Source: Arenibacter sp. ARW7G5Y1
Lineage (GTDB): Bacteria; Bacteroidota; Bacteroidia; Flavobacteriales; Flavobacteriaceae
Direction: 5' to 3'
NCBI RefSeq assembly: GCF_003201775.1
Contig: NZ_QJJZ01000009.1
Span: 62,001-126,000 of the forward strand
DNA: 64,000 nucleotides
Under the pieces are notes generated by a model that had not been told where the DNA came from, ran no database searches, and saw only the letters and a program-made list of their open reading frames with translations. Made by a program: the position numbers and the translations under genes. This document shows, piece by piece, positions 1,358 through 46,772 of this stretch; positions within the stretch are counted from its first letter, which is position 1; every line of letters begins with the position of its first letter.

Positions 1358-1431
1358 TAAATCTAAAGCGGAAGAATTTTGAAAACCATGATATTCGTCA
1401 GTTTCATATTCCCTCTGTTTAGGTAATTTTA
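1358..1431. promoter_or_regulatory. Divergent promoter with operator TGATATTCGTCA
   Basis: The operator is at 1389-1400. On the minus strand a -7 box TAGATTTA lies at 1365-1358, and on the plus strand TAATTTTA lies at 1424-1431. Each is separated from the operator by 23 bp. One palindrome therefore appears to activate both the usp operon and the thioredoxin gene. Confidence 0.8.
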
Positions 1432-1449
1432 CTTTCTAAAAATTAAATT

Positions 1450-1749
1450 ATGAAGGACAGTTTTAACAATATAATCAATTCCGATACCCCGGTGCTAGTC
1501 GACTTTTACGCGGATTGGTGCGGACCCTGTAAAATGTTGGCGCCCATTTTAAAACAGGTAAAGGACGAATTGGGAAGTACCCTAAAAATTATAAAGATCG
1601 ATGTGGACAAGAATCAATCCTTGGCCAACACTTACCAAGTAAGGGGAGTACCCACCATGTTGTTGTTTAAAAACGGAAAGCAGGTTTGGCGACAATCCGG
1701 AGTACTTCAAAAGAATGACATTGTTGGGGTGGTGCAACAGCATATTTAA
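1450..1749 (+). CDS. trx: Thioredoxin
   Basis: This 99-residue single-domain thioredoxin has the redox site W23-C-G-P-C27-K and the cis-proline in GVPT (P68). It has no signal peptide, so it acts in the cytosol as a disulfide reductant. At 99 residues it is slightly short because the N-terminal strand is trimmed. It is transcribed divergently from the usp operon and shares that operon's operator, with its own -7 box TAATTTTA. It is probably a stress-specific thioredoxin rather than the housekeeping one (inference from context). The upstream ATG is preceded by the A-rich tract typical of this phylum. Confidence 0.95.
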   Translation: MKDSFNNIINSDTPVLVDFYADWCGPCKMLAPILKQVKDELGSTLKIIKIDVDKNQSLANTYQVRGVPTMLLFKNGKQVWRQSGVLQKNDIVGVVQQHI

Positions 1750-1792
1750 AGGGATACCCCAAGGATTGCCCCGCAATTGAGATCCAATATGC

Positions 1793-2632
1793 TTATTCGT
1801 GTACTATTAGAAATGGAATCTTGGTATGGTAACTGATTTTTTCGACCGCTGGTTTAAATAGGATGCGCTCCAAGAAGTTTAGGTTCTTGGCCACCATAAC
1901 CAACATATCCAAATCCCTACTTTCAACGAATGCCTGTACCGCATCATCCAAATTTTTTATAGTAAGGGTATGAAAGGAATGTTCATTTTCCCTAAAATAG
2001 TTCTTTATAAATTCCTTGTTCTTCATTTGTAGATCACTGAGGTCCTTCCCTTTTTGAGACACATATAGAAAGCGCAATGCGGAGTTATGCATTACCGCAA
2101 GTTCCTTGATATGGTTCAGCACCTTTATATCATAACTTAATTGGAAATCTGTGGGAAACCCTATTTCACGTGGGTTGTTATATTCAGCGTCCTCGGGCAC
2201 GGCCAAAACCGCACATCGTACTTTGGTAAGGACATTGCCCGTATTGCTTCCCAGGGAAACAGCTTTAAGGCCACTGGCACCTTTAGTTCCCATAATGATC
2301 AGGTCTATATTTCTGTCCTTTACTTCTTGCTTTATATGATCTGTAAAAAACCCGTACAATGCAGTAGTATTAAAGCTATGCTTAGTGTTTAAGGGCAGAC
2401 GTTCGATCTCATTAAGCAAATTTACCAATTTCTCCTTACTCTCCTTTAGAATATTTTCCTCCAAGAGTTCTGCCGAGGCATACATGGCTGCCTCACCACC
2501 GGAATTATAGGAAATAGGATTTATATGGACGATATGAAAAGTACATCTGGTTTTGGAATACAATGCTGTTCCATACTTAATGGCATTCCACGCATTATCA
2601 GAGAAGTCGGTAGGTATCAATATATTTTTCAT
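1793..2632 (-). CDS. Universal stress protein, tandem UspA domains
   Basis: This is a 279-residue two-domain UspA protein. The first domain starts MKNILIPTDFSDNA and has a complete ATP motif (G115, G118, G128, S129). The second starts near residue 157 (REIGFPTDFQ) and its motif is degenerate (MVAKNLNFLERILF). It is especially close to the protein encoded at 5577-6413, which has AKNLNFLQQLLF at the same place and SNTGNVLTKV versus SNSGNVLTKV after the ATP motif. These two probably arose by a recent duplication. It has its own promoter at 2675-2717. Confidence 0.95.
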   Translation of the reverse strand: MKNILIPTDFSDNAWNAIKYGTALYSKTRCTFHIVHINPISYNSGGEAAMYASAELLEENILKESKEKLVNLLNEIERLPLNTKHSFNTTALYGFFTDHIKQEVKDRNIDLIIMGTKGASGLKAVSLGSNTGNVLTKVRCAVLAVPEDAEYNNPREIGFPTDFQLSYDIKVLNHIKELAVMHNSALRFLYVSQKGKDLSDLQMKNKEFIKNYFRENEHSFHTLTIKNLDDAVQAFVESRDLDMLVMVAKNLNFLERILFKPAVEKISYHTKIPFLIVHE

Positions 2633-2674
2633 AAAAGTTGATTTAACGGTTCAATAAGGTTCCCTTTAACGAAC

Positions 2675-2717
2675 TAAAATTAATTGCTCTTTATTTGCTC
2701 CCCAATGACATATATCA
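2675..2717 (-). promoter_or_regulatory. Promoter with operator TGACATATATCA
   Basis: The operator at 2706-2717 is followed on the minus strand, after 23 bp, by a -7 box TAATTTTA at 2682-2675. It drives the usp gene starting at 2632. Confidence 0.78.
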
Positions 2718-2752
2718 TATTGGCTGTAATAATTTCATGATGATAGCGGTCT

Positions 2753-3613
2753 TCAGGGTTCAATTAACGGAAATATTAGAAAAGGTACTTCGGTATTGAA
2801 AGCTACCCTATTAATAACGTTTTCGTTGGTAAGTTTCTCGAAGAAACTATGCCAATAATTTACCATGGCTATCATTCCTATATTGTCATTTACATGGGTA
2901 TAGTTATTTATTGCCCCTGAAATATTCTTATGTCCCTTAATTTCTTCAAAACCGTATTTTATGTCAAGGAACCTTTTGGGCAATAAATCCTTGGCAGTTT
3001 GTTGGTGGGGGTGCAATTCTTTACCGATACCGATATGCACAATGGTAATTTTAGAGTCCCATAATTTAGCCAATTCCAAAAGCGGTACCAATTCTACCTC
3101 ACTATATATATGTTCAAAATTTGTGGCAAAGGCTATTTTCTTCGGAGCCTCAAAATCATATTTCCCAGGAACGGCAATAATAGGGCAGAAGTCTATTTTT
3201 TGTATCACCCTTAGCGTGTTGCTGCCCATAAATACTTCTTTGAGAGCAGAGGAACCTTTGGTTCCCATAAAAATATATTGTACATCTTTATCTATGGTGG
3301 TTCTGCCAATGGCGTTTACCAAGGAGTCGGCGATACTCAATCCGTTGAAGGAGTGCAAGCTATTTTTGTTTACCGATTCCAATTCGTCCATTAGGGATTT
3401 TATGTCTCTCTGGGATTCATCTTTTATAGCTCTAAATAAGCGAGTGTCTTTAGCCTTGCCCATAGTACTGCTCAAATTGGACGGGCCAACTTCAAAGGCA
3501 TGTAAAATATGGAAAACACATTCCACTTTTTCAAATAGGTATACTGCGTAGTCTATGGCATTGCGGGCGTTTGCAGAGAAATCCGTTGGCAGGAGTATAT
3601 GTTTTGCTTTCAT
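2753..3613 (-). CDS. Universal stress protein, tandem UspA domains
   Basis: This 286-residue two-domain UspA protein starts MKAKHILLPTDFSANA. The first-domain ATP motif is intact (G117, G120, G130, S131). The second domain starts near residue 159 (KKIAFATNFE); here the usual Asp of the first strand is Asn, and the loop is degenerate (MVNYWHSFFEKL), so only the first half is likely to bind nucleotide. No good copy of the island operator was found in the 156 bp upstream. It may be read through from the usp gene at 3770-4618 or use an unrelated promoter. Confidence 0.95.
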   Translation of the reverse strand: MKAKHILLPTDFSANARNAIDYAVYLFEKVECVFHILHAFEVGPSNLSSTMGKAKDTRLFRAIKDESQRDIKSLMDELESVNKNSLHSFNGLSIADSLVNAIGRTTIDKDVQYIFMGTKGSSALKEVFMGSNTLRVIQKIDFCPIIAVPGKYDFEAPKKIAFATNFEHIYSEVELVPLLELAKLWDSKITIVHIGIGKELHPHQQTAKDLLPKRFLDIKYGFEEIKGHKNISGAINNYTHVNDNIGMIAMVNYWHSFFEKLTNENVINRVAFNTEVPFLIFPLIEP

Positions 3614-3769
3614 ACTTTTTTATTTACCGTGTATTTGGGGCCACCCTGTGCAAATTGTTCTACCTGGAGGGTGTAGCCTTTAGGGGTTTAATAATAGTAA
3701 GACCGTTTATGAACTAATTTTCGGAAACATGGGACCATATCAATGGTGGAACAGCTTTTGATTGTCTTC

Positions 3770-4618
3770 CTAGGTTTGCCCGGGAAGGAACAAGACCGGC
3801 ACCATGGAATGGAAGGCTATTTTTTTAACAACAGGCTCCTCTATAATTCTTTCCCAAAAGCTATGGTGGTATCTCACCATGGCAAGTAGGTCTGCCCTGG
3901 ATTTGTTAACATACTGCTCAACACTTTGCACAATATTGGTGTCGAATCTTACTTCATTAAGGGAATATGTGGTATCGGCCAATCGTTCTTCCAGAATATG
4001 CAGGTTCGCTTTCTGGACATCGGTGAGAATAAATTCTACCGCTACATGGATTACCTGTATTGTTGCATTCCAAAGGTTTGTTAATTCTGTCATGGGCAAT
4101 AGCCCAAACTTTTCAAACTTTCTAGTATAATCCGTTGGAAAGACCAGTGTTTTTAACTTTTGGAAGTTATAGTTCTTGGGCACTACTATTATGGAAATAT
4201 TTTTAAGTTGTTTTAAGACTCTTACCGTATTGCTTCCCATAAAGATTTCCTTTGCCCCGGTGACGCCTTGGGTGCCCATTACTATGAGGTCTATGTCGTT
4301 ATTAGAAACTATATCCTTAACGGATCCTTCCAAAGTGTCGGATTTGGAAATGGTTTCAAAAAAGTGGTTCGGGTTGTTGTGGTTTTGATTGAGGTAAGCT
4401 AAAATTTTATCTAGTTCCTGGGCCGAATACTGTGCTAGGGAGTCATAAATGACGCCCAATCGCTGTTGACTTTTTTGCCCCAACATGTTCATGGCTTTTG
4501 GTTCGTAGGCATGTAAAATGATAAACTTGCATGGGACATCCGCATAGAGTTTTAATGCTGTAAATATGGCATTCCAGGCATTGTCGGAAAAATCGGTAGG
4601 CAATAGAATTTTTTTCAT
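3770..4618 (-). CDS. Universal stress protein, tandem UspA domains
   Basis: This 282-residue two-domain UspA protein has MKKILLPTDFSDNA at the start and an ATP motif MGTQG...FMGSN near residue 116. A second domain begins at about residue 158 (KTLVFPTDYT) with a degenerate loop (MVRYHHSFWERI). It starts 17 bp after the stop of the preceding usp gene (4636-5481), so the two form an operon read from the promoter near 5540. The role is inferred from the family: ATP-binding stasis or stress protein. Confidence 0.95.
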   Translation of the reverse strand: MKKILLPTDFSDNAWNAIFTALKLYADVPCKFIILHAYEPKAMNMLGQKSQQRLGVIYDSLAQYSAQELDKILAYLNQNHNNPNHFFETISKSDTLEGSVKDIVSNNDIDLIVMGTQGVTGAKEIFMGSNTVRVLKQLKNISIIVVPKNYNFQKLKTLVFPTDYTRKFEKFGLLPMTELTNLWNATIQVIHVAVEFILTDVQKANLHILEERLADTTYSLNEVRFDTNIVQSVEQYVNKSRADLLAMVRYHHSFWERIIEEPVVKKIAFHSMVPVLFLPGQT

Positions 4619-4635
4619 CCTTTTAGCTATTAAAA

Positions 4636-5481
4636 TTATCTGGGTAGATTCTGCATCACCAAAAATGGCAGTTTTAATCGTAGCCCAATTTCGTCTACCG
4701 TGGATCTGTAAAGCATATCCTCCAGGAATGAATGACGCGAGTTTACCATGACCAATAGATTGATGTTATTTTTTTTAATGTAATCCATTATAGCTTCCGC
4801 CTTATTCTTGGTGGGGCGTCGTTCAAAAAATAAATACGCCTCTGCCAAAGATTCCTTAAGGAAGCGTTGGTTATCTATCTGTCTTGTGCTTAAATCATCA
4901 AAGTCTGAAAGGTGTAGGCAATGTATTTCCGATTTAAATTCGGATGCCAAGGTATTCAACAACTTCAATTCCCTTCGCTTGTAAGGCAGCATATAATCTG
5001 TGGGAAACAATATTTTCTTTGGCTGTTGGAACTTATAGTCCAGTGGTACAGCGAGCACGGGGCACTGTACGTATTTGAAAACCTGCACTGTATGGCTGCC
5101 AAAAGTAATTTTTTTGTCGGCAGTTTTACCTTTGGTACCCATAATTACCAAGTCTACATTTATTTGGTTGACAAAATCATTGACAGCATCTACCAAGGTG
5201 TCGAATGCAGAGAGTGTTTCATAAGAGTGTTTTGGGTTGTTCTCCCTAGCGGTAAGTTTTTGAATCAGGTCTTTTAATGCCTCATCGGTATTCTTTTTTA
5301 CCGTTTCTTTTTGCACTTGTATGGAGGATTCCCCATTGGTCTTGTACGGACCATAAACCTCGTCTGCATAAGCGTGCAAAAAGTAGAAATTGGTGCGTTC
5401 ACATTTATATAGATTTAGTGCATAATCTATGGCATGCATTGCGCTGTTGGAAAAATCGGTAGGAATCAGAACTGTTCTCAT
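4636..5481 (-). CDS. Universal stress protein, tandem UspA domains
   Basis: This 281-residue protein starts MRTVLIPTDFSNSA. The first UspA domain carries the ATP motif MGTKG...TFGSH near residue 117. The second domain starts near residue 158 (KKILFPTDYM) and has the degenerate loop MVNSRHSFLEDML. It is the promoter-proximal gene of a two-gene usp operon. The upstream operator at 5535-5546 and perfect -7 box TAACTTTG at 5511-5504 make it one of the clearest regulon members. Confidence 0.95.
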   Translation of the reverse strand: MRTVLIPTDFSNSAMHAIDYALNLYKCERTNFYFLHAYADEVYGPYKTNGESSIQVQKETVKKNTDEALKDLIQKLTARENNPKHSYETLSAFDTLVDAVNDFVNQINVDLVIMGTKGKTADKKITFGSHTVQVFKYVQCPVLAVPLDYKFQQPKKILFPTDYMLPYKRRELKLLNTLASEFKSEIHCLHLSDFDDLSTRQIDNQRFLKESLAEAYLFFERRPTKNKAEAIMDYIKKNNINLLVMVNSRHSFLEDMLYRSTVDEIGLRLKLPFLVMQNLPR

Positions 5482-5503
5482 AGGTTTTCTTTTGTGTACT
5501 TAC

Positions 5504-5546
5504 CAAAGTTATTGGTAGCGACCTATAAAACCTATGACATTTATCA
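5504..5546 (-). promoter_or_regulatory. Promoter with operator TGACATTTATCA
   Basis: The operator is at 5535-5546. The -7 box TAACTTTG at 5511-5504 matches TAnnTTTG in all fixed positions and lies 23 bp downstream on the minus strand. It drives the usp operon starting at 5481. Confidence 0.85.
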
Positions 5547-5576
5547 GTAGCCCAACATCGATTTATTTGGATAAAT

Positions 5577-6413
5577 TTATTCGTGCAAAACCAGTAGGGG
5601 AACGCTGGTCTGAAAACTAATCTTTTTAATGGTGGTGTCGAACAGCAGTTGTTGAAGGAAGTTGAGGTTTTTGGCCACCATGATTACCAGATCTATTTTC
5701 TCGTTGACCACAAATTGTTCAATGGCACTTTTAACCCTATCGTGTTTTAGATGGTGGATGCTATGCGATTTTTCATAAAGCTCCAACAAATAGTCCTTCA
5801 AATAGGTCATATTCTGATTTTGGACATTGTTTAAAGGAACACCGGGCTTGGAGACATTAACAACTCTTAGCTTAGCTTGGGTGAGATGGATCATTTGGGA
5901 AATTGCCTCCAGAATAGAGTGGGAATAGAAGATATTGTAATCGGTAGGAAAGGCAATTTCTTTGGGATTTTTTTGAACGGCCTTTTCTGGAATCATCAAT
6001 AGATTACAGGGTACTTTGGTCAAGACATTGCCGCTATTACTCCCTAAGATGGATTCTTTTAAGCCCGAGGCCCCTTTGGTGCCCATGACAATCAAATCTA
6101 TCTTTTTGTCCAATACGGTCTTGCGAATAATATCTATGAGATTTCCAAACTCATGGAGGGCAATAAAGTGATGTTCCTTATTGGTGCTAAGGGTCTTTAT
6201 GTGTGCAAAGGTAGCAGCAAGGTTATCCCTATGGGGTAAATTGGCTACTTTGGGCGGCATAATAAGGGAATTGCTATCCACACCGGATTGACTCAATGCA
6301 TCAACATGGAGTACGTAAAAATTACAGGGAGCATCTTTAAACAGCTTTATGGCATATTCAATGGCATTTCTGGAATTTTGGGAAAAATCGGTGGGGAACA
6401 GTATACTCTTCAT
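5577..6413 (-). CDS. Universal stress protein, tandem UspA domains
   Basis: This 278-residue two-domain UspA protein starts MKSILFPTDFSQNS. Its ATP motif in the first half is MGTKG...ILGSN near residue 115. The second half starts KEIAFPTDYN near residue 156 and has the degenerate loop MVAKNLNFLQQLLF. It is a close paralogue of the protein at 1793-2632. It is monocistronic, with a perfect -7 box and operator upstream. The gene downstream in the same direction is separated by about 95 bp that carry that gene's own promoter. Confidence 0.95.
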   Translation of the reverse strand: MKSILFPTDFSQNSRNAIEYAIKLFKDAPCNFYVLHVDALSQSGVDSNSLIMPPKVANLPHRDNLAATFAHIKTLSTNKEHHFIALHEFGNLIDIIRKTVLDKKIDLIVMGTKGASGLKESILGSNSGNVLTKVPCNLLMIPEKAVQKNPKEIAFPTDYNIFYSHSILEAISQMIHLTQAKLRVVNVSKPGVPLNNVQNQNMTYLKDYLLELYEKSHSIHHLKHDRVKSAIEQFVVNEKIDLVIMVAKNLNFLQQLLFDTTIKKISFQTSVPLLVLHE

Positions 6414-6438: not shown

Positions 6439-6481
6439 CAAAATTATACTTAAGGCCAAAAATGAAATATGACATTGGTCA
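6439..6481 (-). promoter_or_regulatory. Promoter with operator TGACATTGGTCA
   Basis: The operator at 6470-6481 is followed after 23 bp by the perfect -7 box TAATTTTG at 6446-6439 (minus strand). It drives the usp gene at 6413. The same 12-mer recurs at 10718 and 10868. Confidence 0.85.
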
Positions 6482-6511: not shown

Positions 6512-7564
6512 TTAATTTATGTACTGCAGGGCCTTTAATTCCTTGATACGGATATTCCTTCCTTCGATATCTATGAGCCCTTCTTTTTTGAATCCGGAAA
6601 GCGTACGAATAAGGCTTTCGGTAGCAATACCGGCTACACTAGCCAAATCATTTCGGGAGATTTTAATGGGGTCTTCGGTTTTTTTATTCATTATTTCTGC
6701 AAATTGCAACAAGGTTTGGGCGGTTTTTTTACGAACGGAACTGTAGGCCATTTGCAACAATTGTTGTTTTATGTCCTTAATATTTCCAGAAAGCAGTTCC
6801 ATTAGTTCCAAGGAGATATTGTGGTTCTTTTCCAGTACTTGCTTTAAATTTTCCTTGGAAATTCCGGCCAGTTCCGTATCCTCAATGGCAGTTGCCGATT
6901 CTTGGTATGGAATATTGTCTATAAAGGAGGTAAATCCCAAAAAGTCATCGGCCCTATAAAGGGAAGTAATCAGCTCTTTTCCATCCTCGTCCATTGTATG
7001 GCATTTTACTACCCCTTTTAGGATAAGATATATTTTATGCGAATAGGTACCTTCTAGGTAGATGGAGCTTCCTTGGGGGAAACTACTAGGTTCGCCATTG
7101 TCGTCAAAAAAATTCTTCAACTCGTTCAAGGTACGAATCTGATCTTCCGAGTTGGAGGGGTCTGATTTTGCGTCCTGTGCCATTCGCCCCAAGAGTTCCA
7201 CTTTGGCCAAACGACTTTCAATGGCATTTACGAGGTCTTCCTCTTCAAAAGGCTTGGTAAGGTAATCGTCCGCTCCCAGATCCATTCCTCGCCGTATCTC
7301 TTTGTGTTCGGTTTTGGCAGATAGGAATATAAAGGGAATATGTTTGGTTTTTTCATCTGACGACAGGTCTTTCAATACACCATAACCATCTACTTCCGGC
7401 ATCATAATGTCACAGACGATAATATCGGGTAGTTTTTCCTTTGCCAATTGAATACCAATTTTACCGTTGGGGGCGGTAATCATACTATAGCCTGAAAGCT
7501 CCAAAAGCTCTTCGGTGTTTTCACGTAAGGCCCTATCGTCCTCGATCAATAGAATAGTCTTCAT
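6512..7564 (-). CDS. Receiver-CRP/FNR hybrid response regulator
   Basis: This 350-residue protein has a receiver domain (about 1-120; phospho-acceptor D52 in CDIMMPEVDG, LTKPF loop near 105), a cyclic-nucleotide-binding-like barrel (about 150-265) and a CRP/FNR winged helix (about 280-345). The recognition helix has E316 and R320, spaced like the Glu and Arg with which CRP and FNR read the TGA half-site. The cysteine set that binds the FNR iron-sulfur cluster is not apparent, so input should come through phosphorylation. It lies 7 bp after the histidine kinase gene, in one operon. A paralogue is at 21528-22595. I infer that these two proteins bind the TGAY-N4-RTCA operators of the island. Confidence 0.93.
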   Translation of the reverse strand: MKTILLIEDDRALRENTEELLELSGYSMITAPNGKIGIQLAKEKLPDIIVCDIMMPEVDGYGVLKDLSSDEKTKHIPFIFLSAKTEHKEIRRGMDLGADDYLTKPFEEEDLVNAIESRLAKVELLGRMAQDAKSDPSNSEDQIRTLNELKNFFDDNGEPSSFPQGSSIYLEGTYSHKIYLILKGVVKCHTMDEDGKELITSLYRADDFLGFTSFIDNIPYQESATAIEDTELAGISKENLKQVLEKNHNISLELMELLSGNIKDIKQQLLQMAYSSVRKKTAQTLLQFAEIMNKKTEDPIKISRNDLASVAGIATESLIRTLSGFKKEGLIDIEGRNIRIKELKALQYIN

Positions 7565-7571: not shown

Positions 7572-9083
7572 TCAATTTATATTTTCTAAAGGGATCACTA
7601 TGGTAAAAATAGATCCTTTGTTTTCTTCACTAGTGAATTCAATGGTGGCGCCAAGATTCTCCAAATGCTGTTTGGCAATGTTGAGTCCAATGCCCGTGCC
7701 TTGGTTCAATAATGCATTTTCCGCCCTGAAATATCGATTGAAAATATGTTTTTGGTCCTCGACAGGAATACCAATCCCACGGTCTATGACTTTAATTAAT
7801 ACATTGTTTTTTTCCTTACTGACCGCTAGGCTAATGGTTGTATCTTCAGGGGAATATTTAATGGCATTGTGGATCAGGTTGGACAAGGCCAGTTCCAATG
7901 TTTTTTCATCAAATCTGATAAAAATGTCGTCGATATTCTCTGGATATTGAATGGTTTGGCCCGCCTTAAGGAGCATGTTGGCACCATAGACTACCTCGTT
8001 TATAATTTTGCTTAGGGGGAAGGTTTCGATCTTGTAATTTACCTTTCCGGAATCCAAGCGTTCCACGGAAAGAAAATCGGTTAAAATGGTATCCAGATAA
8101 CGTACTTTGTTCTTTATGGTTTCCACATGTTTGTCCCGTTTATCCTGTTGGTGACTTTCGGTATACTTGGCCAATAAGGTTATGGAGGTAAGTATGCTGC
8201 TCAAAGGGGTTTTGAATTCATGGGAAACCAAGGAGAGGAAGCGAGTTTTAAGTTCGTTCAATTCCTTCTCTTTGGCCAGGGCTTCGGTAAGTTGTTTGGT
8301 GCGTTCCTGGACTTTTTTTTCTAGTTTTTCGGTATAATTCCTACGTTCCGTAATATCGAGGATTATGGCAACTATAACATCCCTTTCACCAAATGTGGAT
8401 AGCTGCAAATGTACTTCCACGGGATATATGGATCCGTCCTTTCTTTGATGGTCGGTTTCAAATTTCACCTTGTCCCTTGCCCCGGAAAGCAAAGGCTCTA
8501 TAAGCCCTTGGAATTGTGTTGCATCCATATAGGGCTTTATATCCAAAGGCTTCATGGCCTTAAATTCCTCCAAGTCATAGCCCATATTTCGAAGGGCCTC
8601 TTTGTTTACACTTACAAAATGTTGTGTAAGGGCATCGAAAACGTAAATTTCGTTTAAGGACTCATCAAATATTCTGGCCCAATGGCTAAGTTCCCTTTCT
8701 TTGATCTTACGTTCGGTAATATCTATTACCAAGGCCATTACATAGGTTTCGCCATATAGCTCAAAAGGGTTTAGGCCCGCCTCAACTGGAAATTCCTCGC
8801 CGTTTTTTCGTACTCCATGCAAATCCCTTCCCTTACCCATTTGCCTGCGTTCACTTTTTTCGATAAAGTCTTCCACATGGTCTCCATGATGCTTGTGGAA
8901 CCTTCTTGGAATAAGGGTGTCCAAGGGTTTTCCGAGGAGCTCGCCCTTATTATAACCAAACATTAATCCGGTAGAGGAATTAGTGGCTACTATAATCTGT
9001 TGGGTATTTACAACAATAATTCCTTCGGATACCCCTTCGGAAAGTAGATTGAATATGTCACTGTTTTTTTGAAAGGCCTGCAT
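7572..9083 (-). CDS. PAS histidine kinase with FixL-like heme-PAS candidate
   Basis: This 503-residue kinase has no membrane segment. Its order is PAS (about 10-125), PAS/PAC (about 135-248), a short coiled coil, HisKA with H288 in SHEFKTP, and HATPase with N, G1 (DRGIGIP) and G2 (GTGIGL) boxes. The first PAS aligns without gaps over 35 residues with the heme PAS of rhizobial FixL. H66 falls on the proximal heme histidine and R86 (GKGRD) on the FG-loop arginine that contacts bound oxygen. Oxygen sensing is therefore a reasonable inference, though similar sequence occurs in some heme-free PAS domains. Its partner is the hybrid regulator 7 bp downstream. Confidence 0.92.
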   Translation of the reverse strand: MQAFQKNSDIFNLLSEGVSEGIIVVNTQQIIVATNSSTGLMFGYNKGELLGKPLDTLIPRRFHKHHGDHVEDFIEKSERRQMGKGRDLHGVRKNGEEFPVEAGLNPFELYGETYVMALVIDITERKIKERELSHWARIFDESLNEIYVFDALTQHFVSVNKEALRNMGYDLEEFKAMKPLDIKPYMDATQFQGLIEPLLSGARDKVKFETDHQRKDGSIYPVEVHLQLSTFGERDVIVAIILDITERRNYTEKLEKKVQERTKQLTEALAKEKELNELKTRFLSLVSHEFKTPLSSILTSITLLAKYTESHQQDKRDKHVETIKNKVRYLDTILTDFLSVERLDSGKVNYKIETFPLSKIINEVVYGANMLLKAGQTIQYPENIDDIFIRFDEKTLELALSNLIHNAIKYSPEDTTISLAVSKEKNNVLIKVIDRGIGIPVEDQKHIFNRYFRAENALLNQGTGIGLNIAKQHLENLGATIEFTSEENKGSIFTIVIPLENIN

Positions 9084-9107: not shown

Positions 9108-9150
9108 TGATTATTGTCATATAAAAAAATAGGGTTATGCGCTAATTTTA
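9108..9150 (+). promoter_or_regulatory. Promoter with operator TGATTATTGTCA
   Basis: The operator at 9108-9119 is followed after 23 bp by TAATTTTA at 9143-9150. It drives the small gene at 9176 and sits close to the divergent kinase start. Confidence 0.78.
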
Positions 9151-10686: not shown

Positions 10687-10729
10687 CAAAAATAAACAGT
10701 AGCCGAACCATTTAAAATGACATTGGTCA
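10687..10729 (-). promoter_or_regulatory. Promoter with operator TGACATTGGTCA
   Basis: The operator is at 10718-10729. The perfect -7 box TATTTTTG at 10694-10687 lies 23 bp downstream on the minus strand. It points to the usp gene at 10438. Confidence 0.78.
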
Positions 10730-10867: not shown

Positions 10868-10910
10868 TGACATTGGTCATTTTATACTGAATTTTCATAT
10901 ACTACTTTAG
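10868..10910 (+). promoter_or_regulatory. Promoter with operator TGACATTGGTCA
   Basis: The operator at 10868-10879 is followed after 23 bp by TACTTTAG at 10903-10910 (five of six fixed positions). The inferred start near 10914 rules out a GTG start at 10910 for the next gene and supports the ATG at 10931. Confidence 0.75.
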
Positions 10911-12436: not shown

Positions 12437-12479
12437 TGATAATTGTCATTGTCTAAGTCGCTTTACAGAAATATCTTCA
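12437..12479 (+). promoter_or_regulatory. Promoter with operator TGATAATTGTCA
   Basis: The operator at 12437-12448 is followed after 23 bp by TATCTTCA at 12472-12479, a weak -7 box (four of six). It supports the ATG at 12494 rather than an upstream start inside the operator. Confidence 0.65.
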
Positions 12480-16892: not shown

Positions 16893-16966
16893 TAAAAATA
16901 AATTTAAATAAATTTAGAGAGACTGACCTATGTCATTTTTTTACATTGTTCTTGAAAGTAATTTAG
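16893..16966. promoter_or_regulatory. Divergent promoter with operator TGACCTATGTCA
   Basis: The operator is at 16924-16935. The minus-strand -7 box TATTTTTA at 16900-16893 drives the ATPase, and the plus-strand box TAATTTAG at 16959-16966 drives hsp20. Both are exactly 23 bp from the operator. Confidence 0.82.
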
Positions 16967-17004
16967 GGCTATAATATATGTATAACCCTAAAAAACACAG
17001 TATT

Positions 17005-18539: not shown

Positions 18540-18563
18540 TGATCGTACTTTTATATTTAATCT

Positions 18564-18606
18564 CAAAATTATTGCATAATTGGGAGTATGGATATGACTA
18601 TTATCA
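18564..18606 (-). promoter_or_regulatory. Promoter with operator TGACTATTATCA
   Basis: The operator at 18595-18606 is followed after 23 bp by the perfect -7 box TAATTTTG at 18571-18564 (minus strand). It drives the patatin gene and fixes its start. Confidence 0.85.
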
Positions 18607-18632: not shown

Positions 18633-18675
18633 TGACCGATATCATTTCTTTCGGATTAGGTGAACAATACATTTG
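18633..18675 (+). promoter_or_regulatory. Promoter with operator TGACCGATATCA
   Basis: The operator at 18633-18644 is followed after 23 bp by the perfect -7 box TACATTTG at 18668-18675. It drives the LOV kinase/regulator operon with a leader of about 118 nt, implying positive autoregulation. Confidence 0.85.
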
Positions 18676-18796: not shown

Positions 18797-21550
18797 ATGA
18801 CCGAAAAAATAACAAATAGCGATCTTTTTCAATCCATTTTTGAATCATCTTTTATTGGATTGATTGTGGTAGACCAATTTGGATGCATTCTCACCTCCAA
18901 TCTGTCGGCGGCAAGAATATTCGGCTATGATGGGGGCGAATTGAAGGGGAAGCATGTTCAATGGATTGTTCCAGATTGGGAGATCAACACTATTGCCGTT
19001 CCAATGGATGGTATTGTTGAAGGGGCCAAAAAGTTTTACGGTCTAGGTAAGGATGGGATCAAATTTCATATCGATTTTAGGATAGTGCCAACTGTAGTTA
19101 AAGGACAGAATTTAAAGGTTATATATTGTAAACCGGCCAATGTTTCCGTATTTGAAAGCGATAGAAAGTTTCGAACCCTGATCTCCAATGTAGCGGGAAT
19201 AGTATATCGTTCCAAAATTGATAAACCTTGGAATTTTGATTTTATTAACGAAGCTTGCCTTTCCATTAGTGGGTATTCTCCTGAACAATTTTATGCCAAC
19301 TTGGAACATACCTGGGAATCCATAATTCACCCAGAGGATAGGTCATGGGTTTTGGCAAAGGTAAAAAAGGCAATAGTAGGGGAAAGACCGTATCAGCTCA
19401 CCTATAGGATTGTTACGGCCAACAAAGAAATAAAATGGATCTGGGAACAGGTTTCCTGTGTTTTGGACCAACAAGGCATAGCCTACAGTTTGGAAGGTTT
19501 TATGCAGGATATTACGGAGCGTAAGGAAATGGAAATTGCACTTAACAAGGAAAAAAAATTACTACGTCAGTATTTGGATAATTCAGCTTCCATGTTTTTG
19601 GTGATCAATAAGAATTATTCCATTGAGCTTGTCAATAAAAAGACCTGTGAGGTTTTAGGTTATGATCGGGATGCAATTTTACACAAGAACTGGTTTACCG
19701 GCTTCGTTCCGCCAAGGGAACGAAAGGGACTAATGGCACTTCTCGATACTAGTTTTGCGGATTACGTGGATCCCCCCGATTTTTATGAAAACCATGTGTT
19801 GACCAAAGATGGTAGGGAGCGACTTATACAATGGCGAAATGCTATCTTACGGGATGGAAACGATCAAATTATTGGGGTTGTAAGTTCTGGTGTGGATATC
19901 ACAGAAACCAAGTTATTACAAAACACCTTAAATATAAGGAATAGTGCCTTGGAACTTGCTGGAAACGGAATTATTATTGTAGATGCCCAAAATCCAAAAC
20001 TGCCAATAATCTATAGCAATAAGTCCTTTACTAAAATAACGGGGTATGCCCGTGATGAGATTCTAGGAAGAAATTGTAGGTTTTTACAGAATAAGGATCG
20101 GCACCAACCCGAAATTGCAAACTTGGCAAAGGCTATACAAAGTGGTAAGCCCTGTAGGGTGGTACTCAGAAATTATCGTAAGGACGGAACCCTTTTTTGG
20201 AATGATCTGGCCATTACGCCCTTATATGACAAAGAGCAAAAATTGACACATTTTATAGGGGTTCAGAACGATGTTACCGAAATTCAGCAAAACAAAAGGA
20301 AATTAGAGGAATATGCCCAACAATTGGAGGATAGAGTAAAGGAACGGACACGGGAGGTAGAAACTACAGTGCAGAAATTGGCAGCCACCAGTTTAGATCT
20401 GGAAGATCAGGTGGTGGAGACCCAAAGGGCGGAAAAGAAGGCGAAGCTAAACAAGGCATTGTTTTCTGCCATAGCACATAATTTCCCCAATGGAATCATT
20501 ATGGTCTTTAATTCCGATTACGAATTGGTTTATGTGGAAGGGGAGGAGATGGACCGTATCAATGTTAAAAAGGCGGATTTTGAAGGAATTCCCCTAGATG
20601 ACATCCCCGTTTTTTCAAAAGGCCAGATCAAAAAAATAAAATCGGATATTCGAAAGACATTAAGGGGAAGCAATATTTCTTTTGAAGTGGATTTTCATGA
20701 TCAATGCTATGCCGTAAATTCGACACCGCTCTATTCCGATGAAAAAAAAATAATGTGGGCCTTGTTTGTTTACAACAATGTTAATGAGCAGAAAGAGGTA
20801 CAACATAAGTTGGAAAGGACACTGACAGCGGAAAAGGAACTAAATGAGCTCAAATCCCGATTTATTTCGATGGCCTCACATGAATTCCGTACCCCGCTAA
20901 GTGCCATACTTTCCTCTGCTATCCTAATAGGAAAACAGAATGAGCCAGGGAAAGAGGACAGGAGATTGAAACATGTCTCGCGGATTAGAACCAATGTAAA
21001 GGATCTAGTTGTTATTCTGAACGACTTCTTATCCTTGAGCAAGTTGGAGGAAGGCAAGGTACAGGTAAAACCACAGTCTTTTGAATTGATTCAATTTATA
21101 AAAATGTTGCTCGATGAAATGGAGCCAAACAAAAAGGATGGTCAAGACTTTGTCTTAAAGTGTCCCGAACCTTCCATATCGGTTTTTCTTGACCCCAAAT
21201 TATTGAATCATATCCTTATAAATCTTCTCTCCAATGCTATAAAGTATTCGGAGGAGCAACAAATAATCATCATAAAAATTGAGGTTAAGGGAGAAATACT
21301 ATTTATAGAGATTAAGGATAAAGGCATTGGAATACCCAAAGAGGAGCAAAAGAACCTGTTCAATCGCTTCTTTCGTGCAGAAAACGCCACCAACTTCCAG
21401 GGCACGGGTCTCGGGCTTCATATTGTTAAACAGTATACGGAACTATTGGGTGGTAGTATAAGTTTTAAAAGTGAAGTGGGTGTTGGAAGTACCTTTAATA
21501 TTGAACTTCCCGTAAATATAAACGGATATGAAAAGAATTCTATTGATTGA
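18797..21550 (+). CDS. Multi-PAS histidine kinase with LOV domain
   Basis: This 917-residue kinase has no membrane segment. In order it has three PAS/PAC domains (about 10-375), a LOV domain (about 385-500), a coiled coil, a further PAS (about 555-665), HisKA with H695 in SHEFRTP, and HATPase (NLLSNAIKYSEE, DKGIGIP, GTGLGL). The LOV domain has GRNCRFLQ with C427 as the expected flavin-adduct cysteine. It also has the flavin-contacting Asn and Gln residues (NYRKDGTLFWND, IGVQND). It should bind FMN and respond to blue light or redox state. Its ORF overlaps the next gene by 23 bp, so it is coupled to its response regulator. Confidence 0.95.
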   Translation: MTEKITNSDLFQSIFESSFIGLIVVDQFGCILTSNLSAARIFGYDGGELKGKHVQWIVPDWEINTIAVPMDGIVEGAKKFYGLGKDGIKFHIDFRIVPTVVKGQNLKVIYCKPANVSVFESDRKFRTLISNVAGIVYRSKIDKPWNFDFINEACLSISGYSPEQFYANLEHTWESIIHPEDRSWVLAKVKKAIVGERPYQLTYRIVTANKEIKWIWEQVSCVLDQQGIAYSLEGFMQDITERKEMEIALNKEKKLLRQYLDNSASMFLVINKNYSIELVNKKTCEVLGYDRDAILHKNWFTGFVPPRERKGLMALLDTSFADYVDPPDFYENHVLTKDGRERLIQWRNAILRDGNDQIIGVVSSGVDITETKLLQNTLNIRNSALELAGNGIIIVDAQNPKLPIIYSNKSFTKITGYARDEILGRNCRFLQNKDRHQPEIANLAKAIQSGKPCRVVLRNYRKDGTLFWNDLAITPLYDKEQKLTHFIGVQNDVTEIQQNKRKLEEYAQQLEDRVKERTREVETTVQKLAATSLDLEDQVVETQRAEKKAKLNKALFSAIAHNFPNGIIMVFNSDYELVYVEGEEMDRINVKKADFEGIPLDDIPVFSKGQIKKIKSDIRKTLRGSNISFEVDFHDQCYAVNSTPLYSDEKKIMWALFVYNNVNEQKEVQHKLERTLTAEKELNELKSRFISMASHEFRTPLSAILSSAILIGKQNEPGKEDRRLKHVSRIRTNVKDLVVILNDFLSLSKLEEGKVQVKPQSFELIQFIKMLLDEMEPNKKDGQDFVLKCPEPSISVFLDPKLLNHILINLLSNAIKYSEEQQIIIIKIEVKGEILFIEIKDKGIGIPKEEQKNLFNRFFRAENATNFQGTGLGLHIVKQYTELLGGSISFKSEVGVGSTFNIELPVNINGYEKNSID

Positions 21551-22595
21551 GGATAACAAGGATGTGCGGGAAAATACAGCAGACATATTGGAATTGGCCA
21601 ATTACGAGGTCACTACTGCCGAGAATGGTAAAATAGGGGTAGAACGCGCTGAAATATTTAGGCCAGATGTGATTATATGCGACATTATGATGCCCGAATT
21701 GGACGGTTATGGAGTCTTGGAACTGTTGGGTAAAAACAATGCAACCTCAAGTATACCCTTTATATTTTTGACGGCAAAAACCGATAGGGCAGAGGTGCGG
21801 TTGGGAATGAATTTGGGGGCAGACGATTATTTGACCAAACCTTTTGAGGAAAAGGAATTATTGGAGGCTATTGCCTCCCGTTTGCGCAAGAGCGATTTTC
21901 TTAAAAAAGAGATTGCAAAAAACATGGAGGGACTTAATAATTTTCTGGATGAGGCTACCCAATACATGGATATGAAGAGTCTTTCCAAGGATTACCCCCT
22001 TAAGAAGTACCATAAAAAGGAGATTATTTTTTGGGAAGGCGATAATGCACATTCCTTGTATTTCATAGAATACGGTAGTGTGAAGACCTATAAAAGCACC
22101 GAATCTGGAAAGGAATTCGTAACGGGTATTTTAGGCCCGGGCGATTTTATTGGGCAATTGTCCTTGTTGAATTCCAATAAAGTGTATGTTGAAAATGCCA
22201 CTGTGTTGGAAGATGCCGAATTGTGTGCCATTCCCAGGAAAGATTTTACTAAATTGCTTTATGGCAACTCTGTGGTTTCTCAGAAATTTATAGGTATGAT
22301 ATCCAATAATATAATGCACTTACAGGAACAGTTGGTGGATATGGCTTATGCCTCGGTAAGGAAACGGGCAGCCAAGGCACTATTGGACCTTTATGATAAG
22401 CAGGTAATACTGGATAAACCCAACGGGGGCATAGGGATTCCACGGGAAGATTTCGCAGGTTTGATCGGTACGGCAACAGAAACCGCTATCCGTACCTTAT
22501 CGGACTTTAAGGAAGAAGGTTTGATTGCCACCGACCACGGAAGAAGGATTACTATAACAAATGAAAAAGGACTTAGGGAAGTAGCCGATTTTTAA
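21528..22595 (+). CDS. Receiver-CRP/FNR hybrid response regulator
   Basis: This 355-residue paralogue of the regulator at 6512-7564 has a receiver (D52 in CDIMMPELDG, LTKPF near 105), a cNMP-type barrel (about 150-270) and a winged helix with E318 and R322 in the recognition helix. The ATG lies inside the kinase gene, which implies coupled translation. The two regulators are nearly alike in the DNA-reading helix (ATESLIRTLSGFKKEGLI versus ATETAIRTLSDFKEEGLI). I infer they read the same operator and let two kinases control one regulon. Confidence 0.93.
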   Translation: MKRILLIEDNKDVRENTADILELANYEVTTAENGKIGVERAEIFRPDVIICDIMMPELDGYGVLELLGKNNATSSIPFIFLTAKTDRAEVRLGMNLGADDYLTKPFEEKELLEAIASRLRKSDFLKKEIAKNMEGLNNFLDEATQYMDMKSLSKDYPLKKYHKKEIIFWEGDNAHSLYFIEYGSVKTYKSTESGKEFVTGILGPGDFIGQLSLLNSNKVYVENATVLEDAELCAIPRKDFTKLLYGNSVVSQKFIGMISNNIMHLQEQLVDMAYASVRKRAAKALLDLYDKQVILDKPNGGIGIPREDFAGLIGTATETAIRTLSDFKEEGLIATDHGRRITITNEKGLREVADF

Positions 22596-23576: not shown

Positions 23577-23619
23577 CAAATGTAGCCCTAACAAAATCGA
23601 TTTGAAATGATTTAAATCA
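23577..23619 (-). promoter_or_regulatory. Promoter with palindromic operator TGATTTAAATCA
   Basis: The operator at 23608-23619 is a perfect palindrome. The perfect -7 box TACATTTG at 23584-23577 lies 23 bp downstream on the minus strand. It drives the ytxH operon. Confidence 0.85.
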
Positions 23620-23710: not shown

Positions 23711-23753
23711 TGATATAAGTCATTTTATATAAGCGTTGAAGTTTGCATTTTTG
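23711..23753 (+). promoter_or_regulatory. Promoter with operator TGATATAAGTCA
   Basis: The operator at 23711-23722 is followed after 23 bp by CATTTTTG at 23746-23753 (one mismatch to TAnnTTTG). It drives the sigma-like gene at 23788. Confidence 0.75.
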
Positions 23754-28444: not shown

Positions 28445-28518
28445 CAAAATTATTTAAATGTATCCACCCCTCAAATGACATATATCATTTGTGGAATTTT
28501 ACATATCCACTTACTTTG
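28445..28518. promoter_or_regulatory. Divergent promoter with operator TGACATATATCA
   Basis: The operator is at 28476-28487. On the minus strand the perfect -7 box TAATTTTG lies at 28452-28445. On the plus strand TTACTTTG at 28511-28518 (one mismatch) points to the small gene at 28693. Both are 23 bp from the operator; the plus arm is less certain. Confidence 0.78.
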
Positions 28519-32325: not shown

Positions 32326-32399
32326 CGAAGTTCGGGTATAGAAATAGTACCATATATGATAGAAGTCATTTATGGATACAGCACTTGACCTTAATTTTA
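32326..32399. promoter_or_regulatory. Divergent promoter with operator TGATAGAAGTCA
   Basis: The operator is at 32357-32368. The plus-strand -7 box TAATTTTA (32392-32399) toward usp is good. The minus-strand candidate GAACTTCG (32333-32326) toward pta-ackA matches only four of six fixed positions, although the 23-bp spacing holds. Confidence 0.72.
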
Positions 32400-32521
32400 A
32401 CTTAACAACTTTATCCCATTAACAATTTAACTTCTTTAAATAGGCAAGTATTACGGGGTTTACCCCAATTGGAATATTTGGTTTCTTGCAAGTTGTGTTG
32501 ATAGATTACAATTATAACAAA

Positions 32522-35734: not shown

Positions 35735-35807
35735 CAAAGGAAATAGTTAAGAAGGTGGTGAAAAATGATATTAATCATCATTCCATGTACTTGAGCTTAT
35801 ATTTTTG
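35735..35807. promoter_or_regulatory. Promoter with operator TGATATTAATCA
   Basis: The operator is at 35766-35777. The minus-strand box TTCCTTTG (35742-35735; one mismatch, 23 bp) drives pfkB-glk. On the plus strand a perfect TATTTTTG at 35800-35807 lies 22 bp away, with no clear gene downstream. Confidence 0.75.
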
Positions 35808-39392: not shown

Positions 39393-39435
39393 CAAATCTA
39401 GTCCCTTCTTTTTTTGTAAAATATGATATCGGTCA
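39393..39435 (-). promoter_or_regulatory. Promoter with operator TGATATCGGTCA
   Basis: The operator at 39424-39435 is followed after 23 bp by the perfect -7 box TAGATTTG at 39400-39393 (minus strand). It drives the FMN protein gene and ppsA. No plus-strand box is present, so the exporter genes downstream are not regulon members by this criterion. Confidence 0.85.
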
Positions 39436-41941: not shown

Positions 41942-41950
41942 TCAAGAAAA

Positions 41951-42625: not shown

Positions 42626-42664
42626 TTTTTATTTATCGCAAACTTACATGGGACAGCCATAGTT

Positions 42665-44872: not shown

Positions 44873-44978
44873 ATTGTTTTATCTATTAAATGTAAGGTAT
44901 TTTCTAGCCTATTTGAAGATAAAGTTGTGCTGTTACCCTTATCTTTAAATATGAATTCAATCTCCTAATTATTTTTCG

Positions 44979-46709
44979 ATGAAAAAAAAATTGAATCAAC
45001 TGGAAGCCACTGCCATATGTGGTAACGACATTAGTTCATCGTGTCTATATGTTTCCGCATTGGCCATAGTTTACTCCGGTCAGTATGCTTGGATTTCCCT
45101 TTTGGTAGTGGCATTTGTCCTGTTTCTTTTTAGGAAAATTTATGGAGAGGTAGTGGGGGCACTACCATTGAACGGAGGTGCCTACAATGCTTTGTTGAAT
45201 ACTACTAAGAAATCGACAGCATCCCTTGCTGCAGCATTGACCGTTTTGTCGTATATGGCAACAGCTGTGATATCGGCTAGTGAGGCTGTAAAATATGCCT
45301 ATAGTATATGGCGCTTTATTCCTGTTTTGCCAGTGACCATATTCTTGATGTTTTGTTTTATGGCATTGGTTATCATTGGAATTGGTGAGTCTTCCAAGGT
45401 GGCAATAGTTATTTTTTTATTTCATCTATTTTCATTAACCTTATTATGTGCTTTCTGTATAGTCTTTTTTGCTCAAAATGGATTTGGGACCTTGTTGTCA
45501 AATTATAAGGTCCCATTGGAAGGTAGTGTCTTTAGCGCTTTGTTTTTAGGGTTTTCTGCGGCAATGTTGGGGATTAGTGGCTTTGAAAGTTCGGCCAATT
45601 ATGTAGAGGAGCAGAAAGCAGGGGTTTTCCCAAAGACCTTGCGCAATATGTGGGTGGTGGTAACTGTTTTTAATCCCTTGATAGCATTTCTTGCCCTAGC
45701 CATTATCCCGCTACATGTAATTGAATCCAATCAAGATGCCCTGCTTTCCCACATGGCCGATGTATCCGGAGGTAATTGGCTTTCCATTCTGGTGGGCATT
45801 GATGCGGCATTGGTTTTAAGTGGGGCCGTACTTACCTCTTTTGTTGGGGTAGGGGGACTTATGGAACGTATGGCCTTGGATAGGATTCTACCCAAATTTT
45901 TATTGAAGAAGAATAAGTCGGGAAGTTCATATTTGATCTATACGCTTTTCTTTATACTTTGTGTATCCATATTATTGGCGACCAAAGGAAATTTGGCAAA
46001 ATTGGCAGGGGTTTATACCATAGCCTTTTTATCGGTTATGGTATTGTTTGGATTGGGAAACATGATGTTAAAAATAAATCGGGACAAATTACCACGCCCG
46101 GAAAGATCAAGTTGGGTGGGCCTTATAATTGCCATACTTGCGGTAATTACAGCCATGGCAGGAAACATAATTTTAAACCCTTCTTATTTGGGGATTTTTA
46201 CGGAATACCTCATTCCCACTCTTCTTGTAGTGTTTTTTATGTTGTACCGCACCTATATTTTTAGGGGATTTCTAGATATTCTAAGTTTTGTCTTTCCAGA
46301 TAAGGGCCATCTATTTAAGACCTTGAATGTGCAGACCAAAAAATTACTGGCGGCAATAAATAAACAACAGTTTGTTTTCTTTACCAACCATGATGATGTA
46401 GCTACCTTAAATAAGGTAATGCTTTACATTAAGAACAATGAACCAACTAGGATACTTAAAATAGTAGCGGTAGTAAATGAAGGGCATATTATGGCCCCCA
46501 AATTAAAGGAGGATATTGAGGTGTTGGATAGGGCTTATCCTGACATTCATATCCAATTTGTTGAAGAAGTAGGTGTGTTTGGTCCAGCAAAAATAAAGGA
46601 GCTTTCAAAACGATGGGGAATTCCTACCAATTTTATGTTCATTGGCTCCCCTGGGGATAAATTCCCCTATAAAATTCAGGAATTGGGCGATGTAAGACTC
46701 ATTATCTAA
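44979..46709 (+). CDS. APC-family permease with soluble C-terminal domain
   Basis: This 576-residue permease has about twelve membrane segments (residues 10-430) with the APC opening LEATAICGNDISSSCLYVSA and GGAYNALL. The last 130 residues form a cytosolic domain (QFVFFTNHDDVATLNKVMLYIKNNEPTRILKIVAVV ... FIGSPGDKF) that has a UspA-like alternation of strands and helices. The transported amino acid or polyamine is unknown. A UspA-like tail would fit the theme of the region but has no visible ATP motif. Confidence 0.85.
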   Translation: MKKKLNQLEATAICGNDISSSCLYVSALAIVYSGQYAWISLLVVAFVLFLFRKIYGEVVGALPLNGGAYNALLNTTKKSTASLAAALTVLSYMATAVISASEAVKYAYSIWRFIPVLPVTIFLMFCFMALVIIGIGESSKVAIVIFLFHLFSLTLLCAFCIVFFAQNGFGTLLSNYKVPLEGSVFSALFLGFSAAMLGISGFESSANYVEEQKAGVFPKTLRNMWVVVTVFNPLIAFLALAIIPLHVIESNQDALLSHMADVSGGNWLSILVGIDAALVLSGAVLTSFVGVGGLMERMALDRILPKFLLKKNKSGSSYLIYTLFFILCVSILLATKGNLAKLAGVYTIAFLSVMVLFGLGNMMLKINRDKLPRPERSSWVGLIIAILAVITAMAGNIILNPSYLGIFTEYLIPTLLVVFFMLYRTYIFRGFLDILSFVFPDKGHLFKTLNVQTKKLLAAINKQQFVFFTNHDDVATLNKVMLYIKNNEPTRILKIVAVVNEGHIMAPKLKEDIEVLDRAYPDIHIQFVEEVGVFGPAKIKELSKRWGIPTNFMFIGSPGDKFPYKIQELGDVRLII

Positions 46710-46730
46710 TGATTGTTGCTTTTAAAGTTA

Positions 46731-46772
46731 TGATAATTATCACCTTTGTCCTTGCTTGTTTTTGTAAATTTA
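46731..46772 (+). promoter_or_regulatory. Promoter with palindromic operator TGATAATTATCA
   Basis: The operator at 46731-46742 is a perfect palindrome. The -7 box TAAATTTA at 46765-46772 lies 22 bp downstream. It drives the small gene at 46856 and is the last operator in the window. Confidence 0.75.

Follow-up and report, generated by a model that had tools for sequence, protein, structure and literature searches.

CRP/FNR regulons of class II and FixL circuits are familiar from Proteobacteria: class II promoters classically have CRP or FNR centred at −41.5, FNR, ANR and DNR occupy the class II place, and FixJ joins a receiver to a LuxR-type helix-turn-helix (HTH). In Rhizobium leguminosarum, hFixL-FxkR-FixK and FnrN coexist (excerpt of PMC7888657). 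Among the Bacteroidota, Bacteroides carries HcpR2, whose motif is GTAACnnnnGTTAC and whose predicted regulon consists of hcp genes only in most Bacteroides, the P. gingivalis motif being different (excerpt of PMC1274295). Here we analyse a window of Arenibacter sp. ARW7G5Y1, the window being the whole 64-kb stretch of DNA under study (G000:C9:62001-126000, or 1.1% of the 5,734,699-bp genome), in which the element TGAYNNNNRTCA (TGAY-N4-RTCA) recurs at a fixed 23 bp from a TAnnTTTG promoter box. From sequence comparison, this element is likely the class II operator of a widespread low-oxygen regulon of the Flavobacteriaceae, read by an FNR-like protein and by response regulators in which a receiver is fused to a CRP-type module (REC-CRP), with a FixL-like kinase upstream. 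The element, its spacing, its distribution in the genome and the family, the co-occurrence of regulators, the targets and the domain architectures were read directly from the sequences.

Operator, promoter box and spacing

The window contains 21 copies of TGAYNNNNRTCA, against a mean of 3.5 (standard deviation 1.74) in 100 dinucleotide shuffles, none of which reaches 21 and the richest of which holds 9. An earlier note, made from the letters of this DNA alone, had listed 18 operator starts and put the chance expectation at about four matches per 64 kb; a pattern scan of the window recovered all 18 starts to the base. The three further copies (33556, 55416 and 60928) lie inside long open reading frames (ORFs) and have no good box at 23 bp. 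Of the 18 listed sites, described as intergenic, the one at 12437 overlaps a mechanical TTG-started ORF whose in-frame ATG lies 17 codons further on.

Boxes were scored on the six fixed positions of TAnnTTTG, with the better of two orientations taken per site and spacings of 13–33 bp considered. A box of at least 5/6 stands exactly 23 bp away at 16 of the 18 sites, and at most 2/18 sites reach that score at any other spacing. Eight boxes at 23 bp are perfect, as had been reported (5535, 6470, 10718, 18595, 18633, 23608, 28476 and 39424). The rule that all sites but one keep 23 bp holds in that the exception at 46731 is indeed at 22 bp, although the site at 12437 obeys it only if a TAnnTTTG-like box is read generously (4/6). 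Because boxes of five or six matches flank four operators on both sides (1389, 16924, 23608 and 28476), promoters may outnumber operators. The observation of a repeated operator with fixed promoter geometry is thus confirmed. The sites, with strand, box and the genes behind them, are as follows; coordinates span operator and box where both are given as a range.

1358..1431, both strands: operator 1389-1400, box TAATTTTA at 1424-1431 (+), before thioredoxin at 1450
1389-1400, same operator: opposite box TAGATTTA at 1358-1365 (−), before a universal stress protein (Usp) gene, 499-1335
2675..2717, −: operator 2706, box TAATTTTA, before Usp-like 1793-2632 (Usp by eye)
5504..5546, −: operator 5535, perfect box TAACTTTG, before Usp-like 4636-5481 (Usp by eye)
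6439..6481, −: operator 6470, perfect box TAATTTTG, before Usp-like 5577-6413
9108..9150, +: operator 9108, box TAATTTTA, before a 134-aa protein, 9176-9580
10687..10729, −: operator 10718, perfect box TATTTTTG, before Usp-like 9614-10438 (Usp by eye)
10868..10910, +: operator 10868, box TACTTTAG, before a WG-repeat protein and an SDR dehydrogenase
12437..12479, +: operator 12437, weak box TATCTTCA (4/6), before an M50 peptidase-CBS protein and UPRTase
16893..16966, both strands: operator 16924, box TAATTTAG (+) before Hsp20 at 16978 and box TATTTTTA (−) before a P-type ATPase, 14276-16786
18564..18606, −: operator 18595, perfect box TAATTTTG, before a patatin, 17700-18566
18633..18675, +: operator 18633, perfect box TACATTTG, before the kinase-regulator pair HK2-RR2
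23577..23619, −: operator 23608, perfect box TACATTTG, before a 109-aa protein, 23205-23534; second box on the other side, TAAATTAG (5/6)
23711..23753, +: operator 23711, box CATTTTTG, before a 255-aa protein, 23788-24555, which has a sub-threshold Sigma70_r4_2 match
28445..28487, −: operator 28476, perfect box TAATTTTG, before a 128-aa protein, 28021-28407, and an ABC1-kinase-like protein; second box on the other side, TTACTTTG
32357..32399, +: operator 32357, box TAATTTTA, before Usp at 32486; weak opposite box GAACTTCG before pta-ackA (32274-28966)
35735..35777, −: operator 35766, box TTCCTTTG, before PfkB, 34648-35583, and glucokinase
39393..39435, −: operator 39424, perfect box TAGATTTG, before a pyridoxamine-oxidase-like gene at 38847 and a PPDK/PEP-synthase-like gene at 36337
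46731..46772, +: operator 46731, box TAAATTTA at 22 bp, before an 85-aa protein, 46856-47113

Among the Usp-like frames of the window, Pfam was run on 499-1335 and 32486-33382, and the others were called by eye. The stretch 499-6413 holds a row of six Usp-like proteins of about 280 aa each on the minus strand, four of the six behind an operator with a box of five or six matches. Operators 18595 and 18633 are both retained in four Arenibacter loci.

The earlier note had proposed a whole-genome scan with the composite model, an equal density elsewhere counting against it. The genome has 18 copies of the strict composite (operator, 23 bp, TANNTTTG), eight of them inside the window, and none of the reversed pattern used as control; without the last G of the box, the counts are 38 and 1. 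When the strict box is allowed at spacings of 13–33 bp, the genome yields 28 matches (18 at 23 bp, four at 24, one at 22 and five elsewhere), the reversed control 6 over the same spacings. The four matches at 24 bp (C1:133927, C1:314568, C13:3613 and C13:167103) may be a tolerated variant. The statement that the sites stop at 46.7 kb is true of the window alone: further sites lie at C9:139-141 kb and on other contigs. Within 888,185 bp around homologues of RR2, a REC-CRP regulator of the window, 66 strict composites stand at spacing 23 and 5 at the 26 other spacings from 10 to 36; the 62 lower-ranked loci of this set (L172-L233) contribute 17 and 4. A chance origin of the element is ruled out by the shuffles, the reversed genome control, the spacing peak at 23 and the RR2-homologue loci, and a phenomenon confined to this island is ruled out by sites elsewhere in the genome and across family genomes.

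In Flavobacterium psychrophilum, the sigmaA box TAnnTTTG lies at −12 to −5 according to 5′-end RNA sequencing (excerpt of PMC9723704). If this published position is applied, the 12-bp operator spans −47 to −36 of the predicted starts and is centred at −41.5, so the class II CRP/FNR place named in the earlier note stands while its centre moves from −40.5. The sites thus combine the TAnnTTTG box of Bacteroidota sigmaA promoters with an operator centre that, on starts predicted from the spacing and the published box position, is that of class II promoters. One alternative treats the distance to the box as incidental and the element as a repressor operator or strand-neutral palindrome. Boxes on both sides of some operators would suit it, but the exact 23-bp spacing (66 against 5 over 26 other spacings around RR2 homologues; 22 against 0 at ccoN loci) and the centre at −41.5 fit activation, and we regard it as highly improbable.

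Gene starts are placed consistently with these predicted transcription starts. The chosen ATG lies 5–45 nt past the predicted start at 19/36 sites of the Arenibacter genome (20/36 counting one TTG), compared with 53/400 random window positions and 256/2,000 random non-coding positions; the random window control counted ATG only, so that 19/36 is the like-for-like figure. Since such sites are by their nature found in front of genes, they have an advantage over random positions, and the non-coding control addresses this. Of the 38 looser-box sites, 30 had loci, and 36 sites of the genome entered this test, the ccoN site being read separately: its apparent 224-nt leader contains, 15 nt after the predicted start, a small ccoS-like frame (by eye). 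In relatives, an ATG follows within 5–45 nt at 44/60 sites, the chosen start falls at 10–30 nt at 42/60, and all 60 are followed by an open frame of 60 codons or more. These 60 sites come from a hand-picked 7 of the 15 relatives with listed matches, and comprise all listed sites of six of them except one (G024, 8/9) and 3/7 for G063.

Candidate regulators and their distribution

Two kinase-regulator pairs are encoded in the window:

6512..7564, −: RR1, response regulator of 350 aa with receiver, cNMP_binding and HTH_Crp_2 (REC-CRP)
7572..9083, −: HK1, PAS-PAS histidine kinase directly upstream of RR1 (Pfam PAS_9, HisKA, HATPase_c)
18797..21550, +: HK2, multi-PAS histidine kinase overlapping the RR2 start (Pfam PAS_9 in three stretches, HisKA, HATPase_c)
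21528..22595, +: RR2, second REC-CRP response regulator, 355 aa (Pfam)

RR1 matches Response_reg (8.9e-29), cNMP_binding (1.5e-16) and HTH_Crp_2 (2.1e-12), and RR2 matches Response_reg (1.2e-27) with cNMP_binding and HTH_Crp_2 over their cut-offs. With a receiver, a phospho-acceptor Asp motif and an adjoining kinase, both are two-component response regulators, and both belong to the CRP/FNR superfamily. Four proteins of the genome exceed the Pfam cut-off for HTH_Crp_2, namely RR1, RR2 and two stand-alone proteins at C10:99837 and C8:37531, and three further matches score below it. The protein at C10:99837, hereafter FNR-like, also belongs to the superfamily and matches CRP/FNR structures over most of its length; its gene bears a strict composite at its own promoter, and its likely start, MGRCENC, lies 19 nt after the predicted transcription start. 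RR2-like REC-CRP proteins are found in Arenibacter (84–90% identity) and across Bacteroidota (best 80 of 578 matches). REC-CRP relatives also appear on contigs labelled Thalassovita, Bacteriovorax, Bdellovibrionales, Delta- or Alphaproteobacteria and Bacteriovoracaceae (L176, L179, L180, L204, L209 and L219), which could be mis-binned contigs or cases of transfer.

The recognition helices of RR1 (TESLIR), RR2 (TETAIR) and the FNR-like protein (TESAIR) all read TE[ST][AL]IR. In alignments whose rows are the best-scoring loci rather than a random draw, and in which the FNR-like query occurs twice, the E..IR core is retained in 31/31 FNR-like and 32/32 REC-CRP rows, and the phospho-acceptor motif CDIMMP, present in RR1, in 32/32 REC-CRP rows. 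Aligned to FNR, whose ligand cysteines and their numbering (C29, C122) we assume here, the FNR-like protein has two N-terminal cysteines and one further cysteine at ligand positions and is missing the fourth; the N-terminal CxxC and the C122 equivalent are invariant in the 31 rows, and the C29 equivalent is absent. The operator probably has more than one reader. The CRP-type protein at C8:37531 was rejected as a reader, its helix (SRVVVSR) being different.

The family was sampled with 149 genomes, one per genus, and 139 of them contain the composite (1,218 matches against 24 for the control). An FNR-like orthologue was called at E <1e-41 in the FNR-like search, a chosen cut, and REC-CRP as a strong match in an open frame of at least 350 aa. 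The mean number of sites is 9.50 in the 98 genomes with an FNR-like orthologue, 8.77 in the 31 with REC-CRP and no such orthologue, and 0.75 in the 20 with neither. Of the 14 genomes without any match in the FNR-like search, 7 were also searched with the REC-CRP query and 7 count as neither on the first search alone. Ten of the 20 genomes with neither regulator have no site at all, as is true of no genome in either regulator-bearing group. A draw of 198 genomes across the phylum has matches in 84, and the counts peak within Flavobacteriaceae. The proposal of one regulon of about 18 promoters survives as a regulon, but one that extends over the genome and the family rather than over a 46-kb island.

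The cbb3 oxidase gene ccoN (E 1e-100) was found in 0/20 genomes with neither regulator and in 25/26 hand-picked genomes with one. An operator with a box of five or six matches at 23 bp stands at 22 of the 25 ccoN loci, and no such pair occurs there at any other spacing from 13 to 33. It is present in 11/12 genomes with REC-CRP and no FNR-like orthologue and in 11/13 with the FNR-like protein as the only match. Retention of the ccoN operator whichever regulator class is present is the strongest sign that both classes read the same operator. It also bears on the possibility of a single kind of reader, the stand-alone FNR-like protein or its stand-alone kin, with the REC-CRP proteins reading another site and merely co-occurring. 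The FNR-like gene does share its contig stretch with ccoN and hemN and has its own composite, and several genomes without the orthologue carry a more distant stand-alone CRP-type protein; yet REC-CRP is the sole match in both regulator searches in five genomes (G060, G065, G086, G037 and G083) that still have 16, 11, 9, 5 and 2 sites, four of the five (not G037) keep the ccoN operator, and the helices of the two regulator classes match. We consider this single-reader explanation unlikely.

The first PAS domain of HK1 (PAS-1) matches 15 distinct Protein Data Bank sequences, 13 of which are FixL, DosP, heme-PAS or yddU entries, yddU presumably being the old name of DosP. The alignment keeps the FixL His and Arg positions, which we take to be the proximal heme ligand and the distal arginine, and HK1 thereby combines, by sequence, the PAS with His and Arg, HisKA and HATPase of a FixL-type heme-PAS kinase. 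Heme binding by PAS-1 is a prediction. An HK1-like kinase lies upstream of REC-CRP, within about 4.3 kb, in 20/20 genomes fetched for this check (hand-picked from the 31); 19 of these 20 frames are shorter than HK1 (389–446 residues), and across HK1 and the 20 genomes the His is kept in 21/21 rows and the Arg in 19/21.

Several findings weigh against a low-oxygen regulon with two reader classes. Regarding the classes themselves, the genomes with neither regulator include some with weaker stand-alone CRP-type matches (e.g. G009, E 6.7e-23), the FNR-like-only class is defined by a single match in the FNR-like search and not by the REC-CRP query, and several genomes counted as REC-CRP without an orthologue, for example G033, G066, G093, G097 and G108, encode a stand-alone CRP-type protein with 31–36% identity to the FNR-like protein. 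G121, with 5 sites, falls in neither class by these definitions and may hold a further stand-alone CRP-type reader. As for sensing, PAS domains for which no heme binding is known can also have the His/Arg motifs; of the four cluster cysteines that mark a 4Fe-4S oxygen sensor of the FNR kind, the FNR-like protein is missing one, and it scores 108.9 against an NCBIfam Fnr cut-off of 228, so that it may or may not sense oxygen by a [4Fe-4S] cluster. No composite stands at the promoter of HK1-RR1 itself, the site at 9108 facing away, and three of the 25 ccoN loci have no site (G091, a shorter fetched locus, G094 and G037). Finally, regulators and ccoN are missing together, in many cases from small genomes, and a shared life style rather than direct regulation could be the cause. 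Because genomes with neither regulator are often small, part of the contrast in site counts may be genome size, but several of them are of normal size (G036, G064 and G074, 3.0–3.4 Mb, no sites).

Target genes and a predicted circuit

First frames behind the 60 sites of relatives include 6 hemN, 5 ccoN, 7 Usp, 7 cytochrome c, 3 NadA, 3 MlaE and 3 S30AE/HPF genes, with one each of PTA, POR-type and PFL-like. In the Arenibacter genome, strict sites stand before hemN and the gene of a copper nitrite reductase, each scoring above the NCBIfam cut-off. They also stand before a gene for a DnaJ-like chaperone and before a cytochrome-c-like gene whose next frame matches NosZ over the 81 N-terminal residues that were fetched. 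The looser-box set adds ccoNO and more Usp-like genes. The copper nitrite reductase (L003 2-1468; G000:C2:249659) has a C-terminal stretch that is weakly ccoP-like, below cut-off, and at L027 a strict composite (13402-13444) precedes an unannotated 89-aa frame (13062-13331) downstream of the DnaJ-like gene. Within the window, sites precede Usp, thioredoxin, Hsp20, patatin, PfkB and PEP-synthase-like genes. The stress and fermentation genes named in the earlier note are thus there (Usp, Hsp20, pta), and low-oxygen respiration (ccoNO, hemN, nirK, nos) is represented equally. In F. psychrophilum under oxygen limitation, the cbb3 oxidase is strongly up and heme-synthesis enzymes are up (excerpt of PMC9723704).

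These targets also bear on whether the site is instead used by a CRP-like carbon or energy sensor of the MalR type (BT4338-type, for which we take Cur to be another name). RR2 scores higher with the NCBIfam CRP model (87.3 bits) than with the Fnr model (69.4 bits), and a metagenome study assigned Flavobacteriales CRP/FNR homologues to MalR-like regulators (excerpt of PMC8510549). The targets, however, form a low-oxygen set, the regulators track ccoN, and unlike plain CRP they carry a receiver or conserved cysteines, which makes such a sensor a rather improbable user of the site.

The class II CRP/FNR interpretation is supported by the sequence evidence, and is strengthened by the CRP-type regulators in the window, the FNR-like gene with its own site, the co-occurrence of regulators and sites, and the placement of start codons. 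In the circuit that we propose, a CRP/FNR-superfamily dimer on TGAY-N4-RTCA would activate sigmaA TAnnTTTG promoters from a centre at −41.5, and the regulon would cover the cbb3 oxidase, HemN, nitrite and N2O reduction, acetate and pyruvate metabolism, ribosome hibernation and universal stress proteins. At low oxygen, the FixL-like PAS kinase would phosphorylate REC-CRP, which would then dimerise on the operator and recruit RNA polymerase, while the FNR-like protein would act in parallel, or alone where REC-CRP is absent. We infer binding by each regulator, activation, phosphotransfer, and heme and oxygen sensing. Autoregulation is predicted for HK2-RR2 through the site at 18633 and for the FNR-like gene through its own site, both of which would be self-activated, while HK1-RR1 would not be. 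Operator 6470 lies directly downstream of RR1, a placement also seen in G086, G024 and G114.

We further lean, with less assurance, towards a broader reading in which one class II operator serves a family-wide low-oxygen regulon and has interchangeable readers, either the three-cysteine FNR-like protein or the one-step FixJ-FixK-type fusion driven by a FixL-like heme-PAS kinase, and in which the regulator was swapped repeatedly while operators and spacing stayed fixed. REC-CRP and an FNR-like protein on shared operators would then show, in nature, one regulator replacing another while the cis-elements stay fixed, a point relevant to how regulons outlast a change of sensor. Flavobacteriaceae are major heterotrophs in seas and soils, and the element can be searched for by its signature (operator, 23 bp, TAnnTTTG), predicts a regulon in most of the sampled genera and comes with named regulators. 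Class II geometry with the unusual Bacteroidota box also makes the contact between activator and polymerase in this phylum open to direct testing.

Comparison with described systems

Among the open-access papers listed in our literature searches, no title or opening abstract concerns an oxygen regulon or a REC-CRP oxygen regulator of Flavobacteriaceae, and the excerpt of PMC11539149 contains nothing on Bacteroidota. HcpR2 is, like the regulators here, a CRP/FNR-family regulator in Bacteroidota, but identity with it was rejected, as TGAY-N4-RTCA differs from the published GTAACnnnnGTTAC (excerpt of PMC1274295). MalR/Cur of Bacteroides is likewise a CRP-type regulator of this phylum, and is set apart by its role in carbon regulation (excerpt of PMC8510549).

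The FNR, ANR and DNR regulators of Proteobacteria share with the present ones the superfamily, the TGA-N6-TCA core (TTGATnnnnATCAA; excerpt of PMC1274295) and hemN among the targets (excerpt of PMC6588701). They differ in that the FNR-like protein here has three rather than four conserved cysteines, the helix reads E..IR rather than E..SR, the operator has no conserved TTGA flank, and the promoter box is another. The rhizobial FixL-FixJ-FixK and FnrN systems resemble the predicted circuit in their FixL-like PAS kinase, CRP/FNR activator and cbb3 oxidase targets; here, by contrast, the receiver and the CRP-type module are in one protein, the operator is TGAY-N4-RTCA and the sigmaA box is TAnnTTTG. 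RR1 and RR2 are not FixJ proteins, since their output is cNMP_binding with HTH_Crp_2, and because receiver and CRP-type module are fused there is no separate FixJ; the FixL-FixJ-FixK chain would be collapsed to a kinase and REC-CRP, with the FixJ and FixK roles merged. What differs from the known systems is the receiver-CRP fusion, its three-cysteine FNR-like partner, the Bacteroidota box and the operator flanks.

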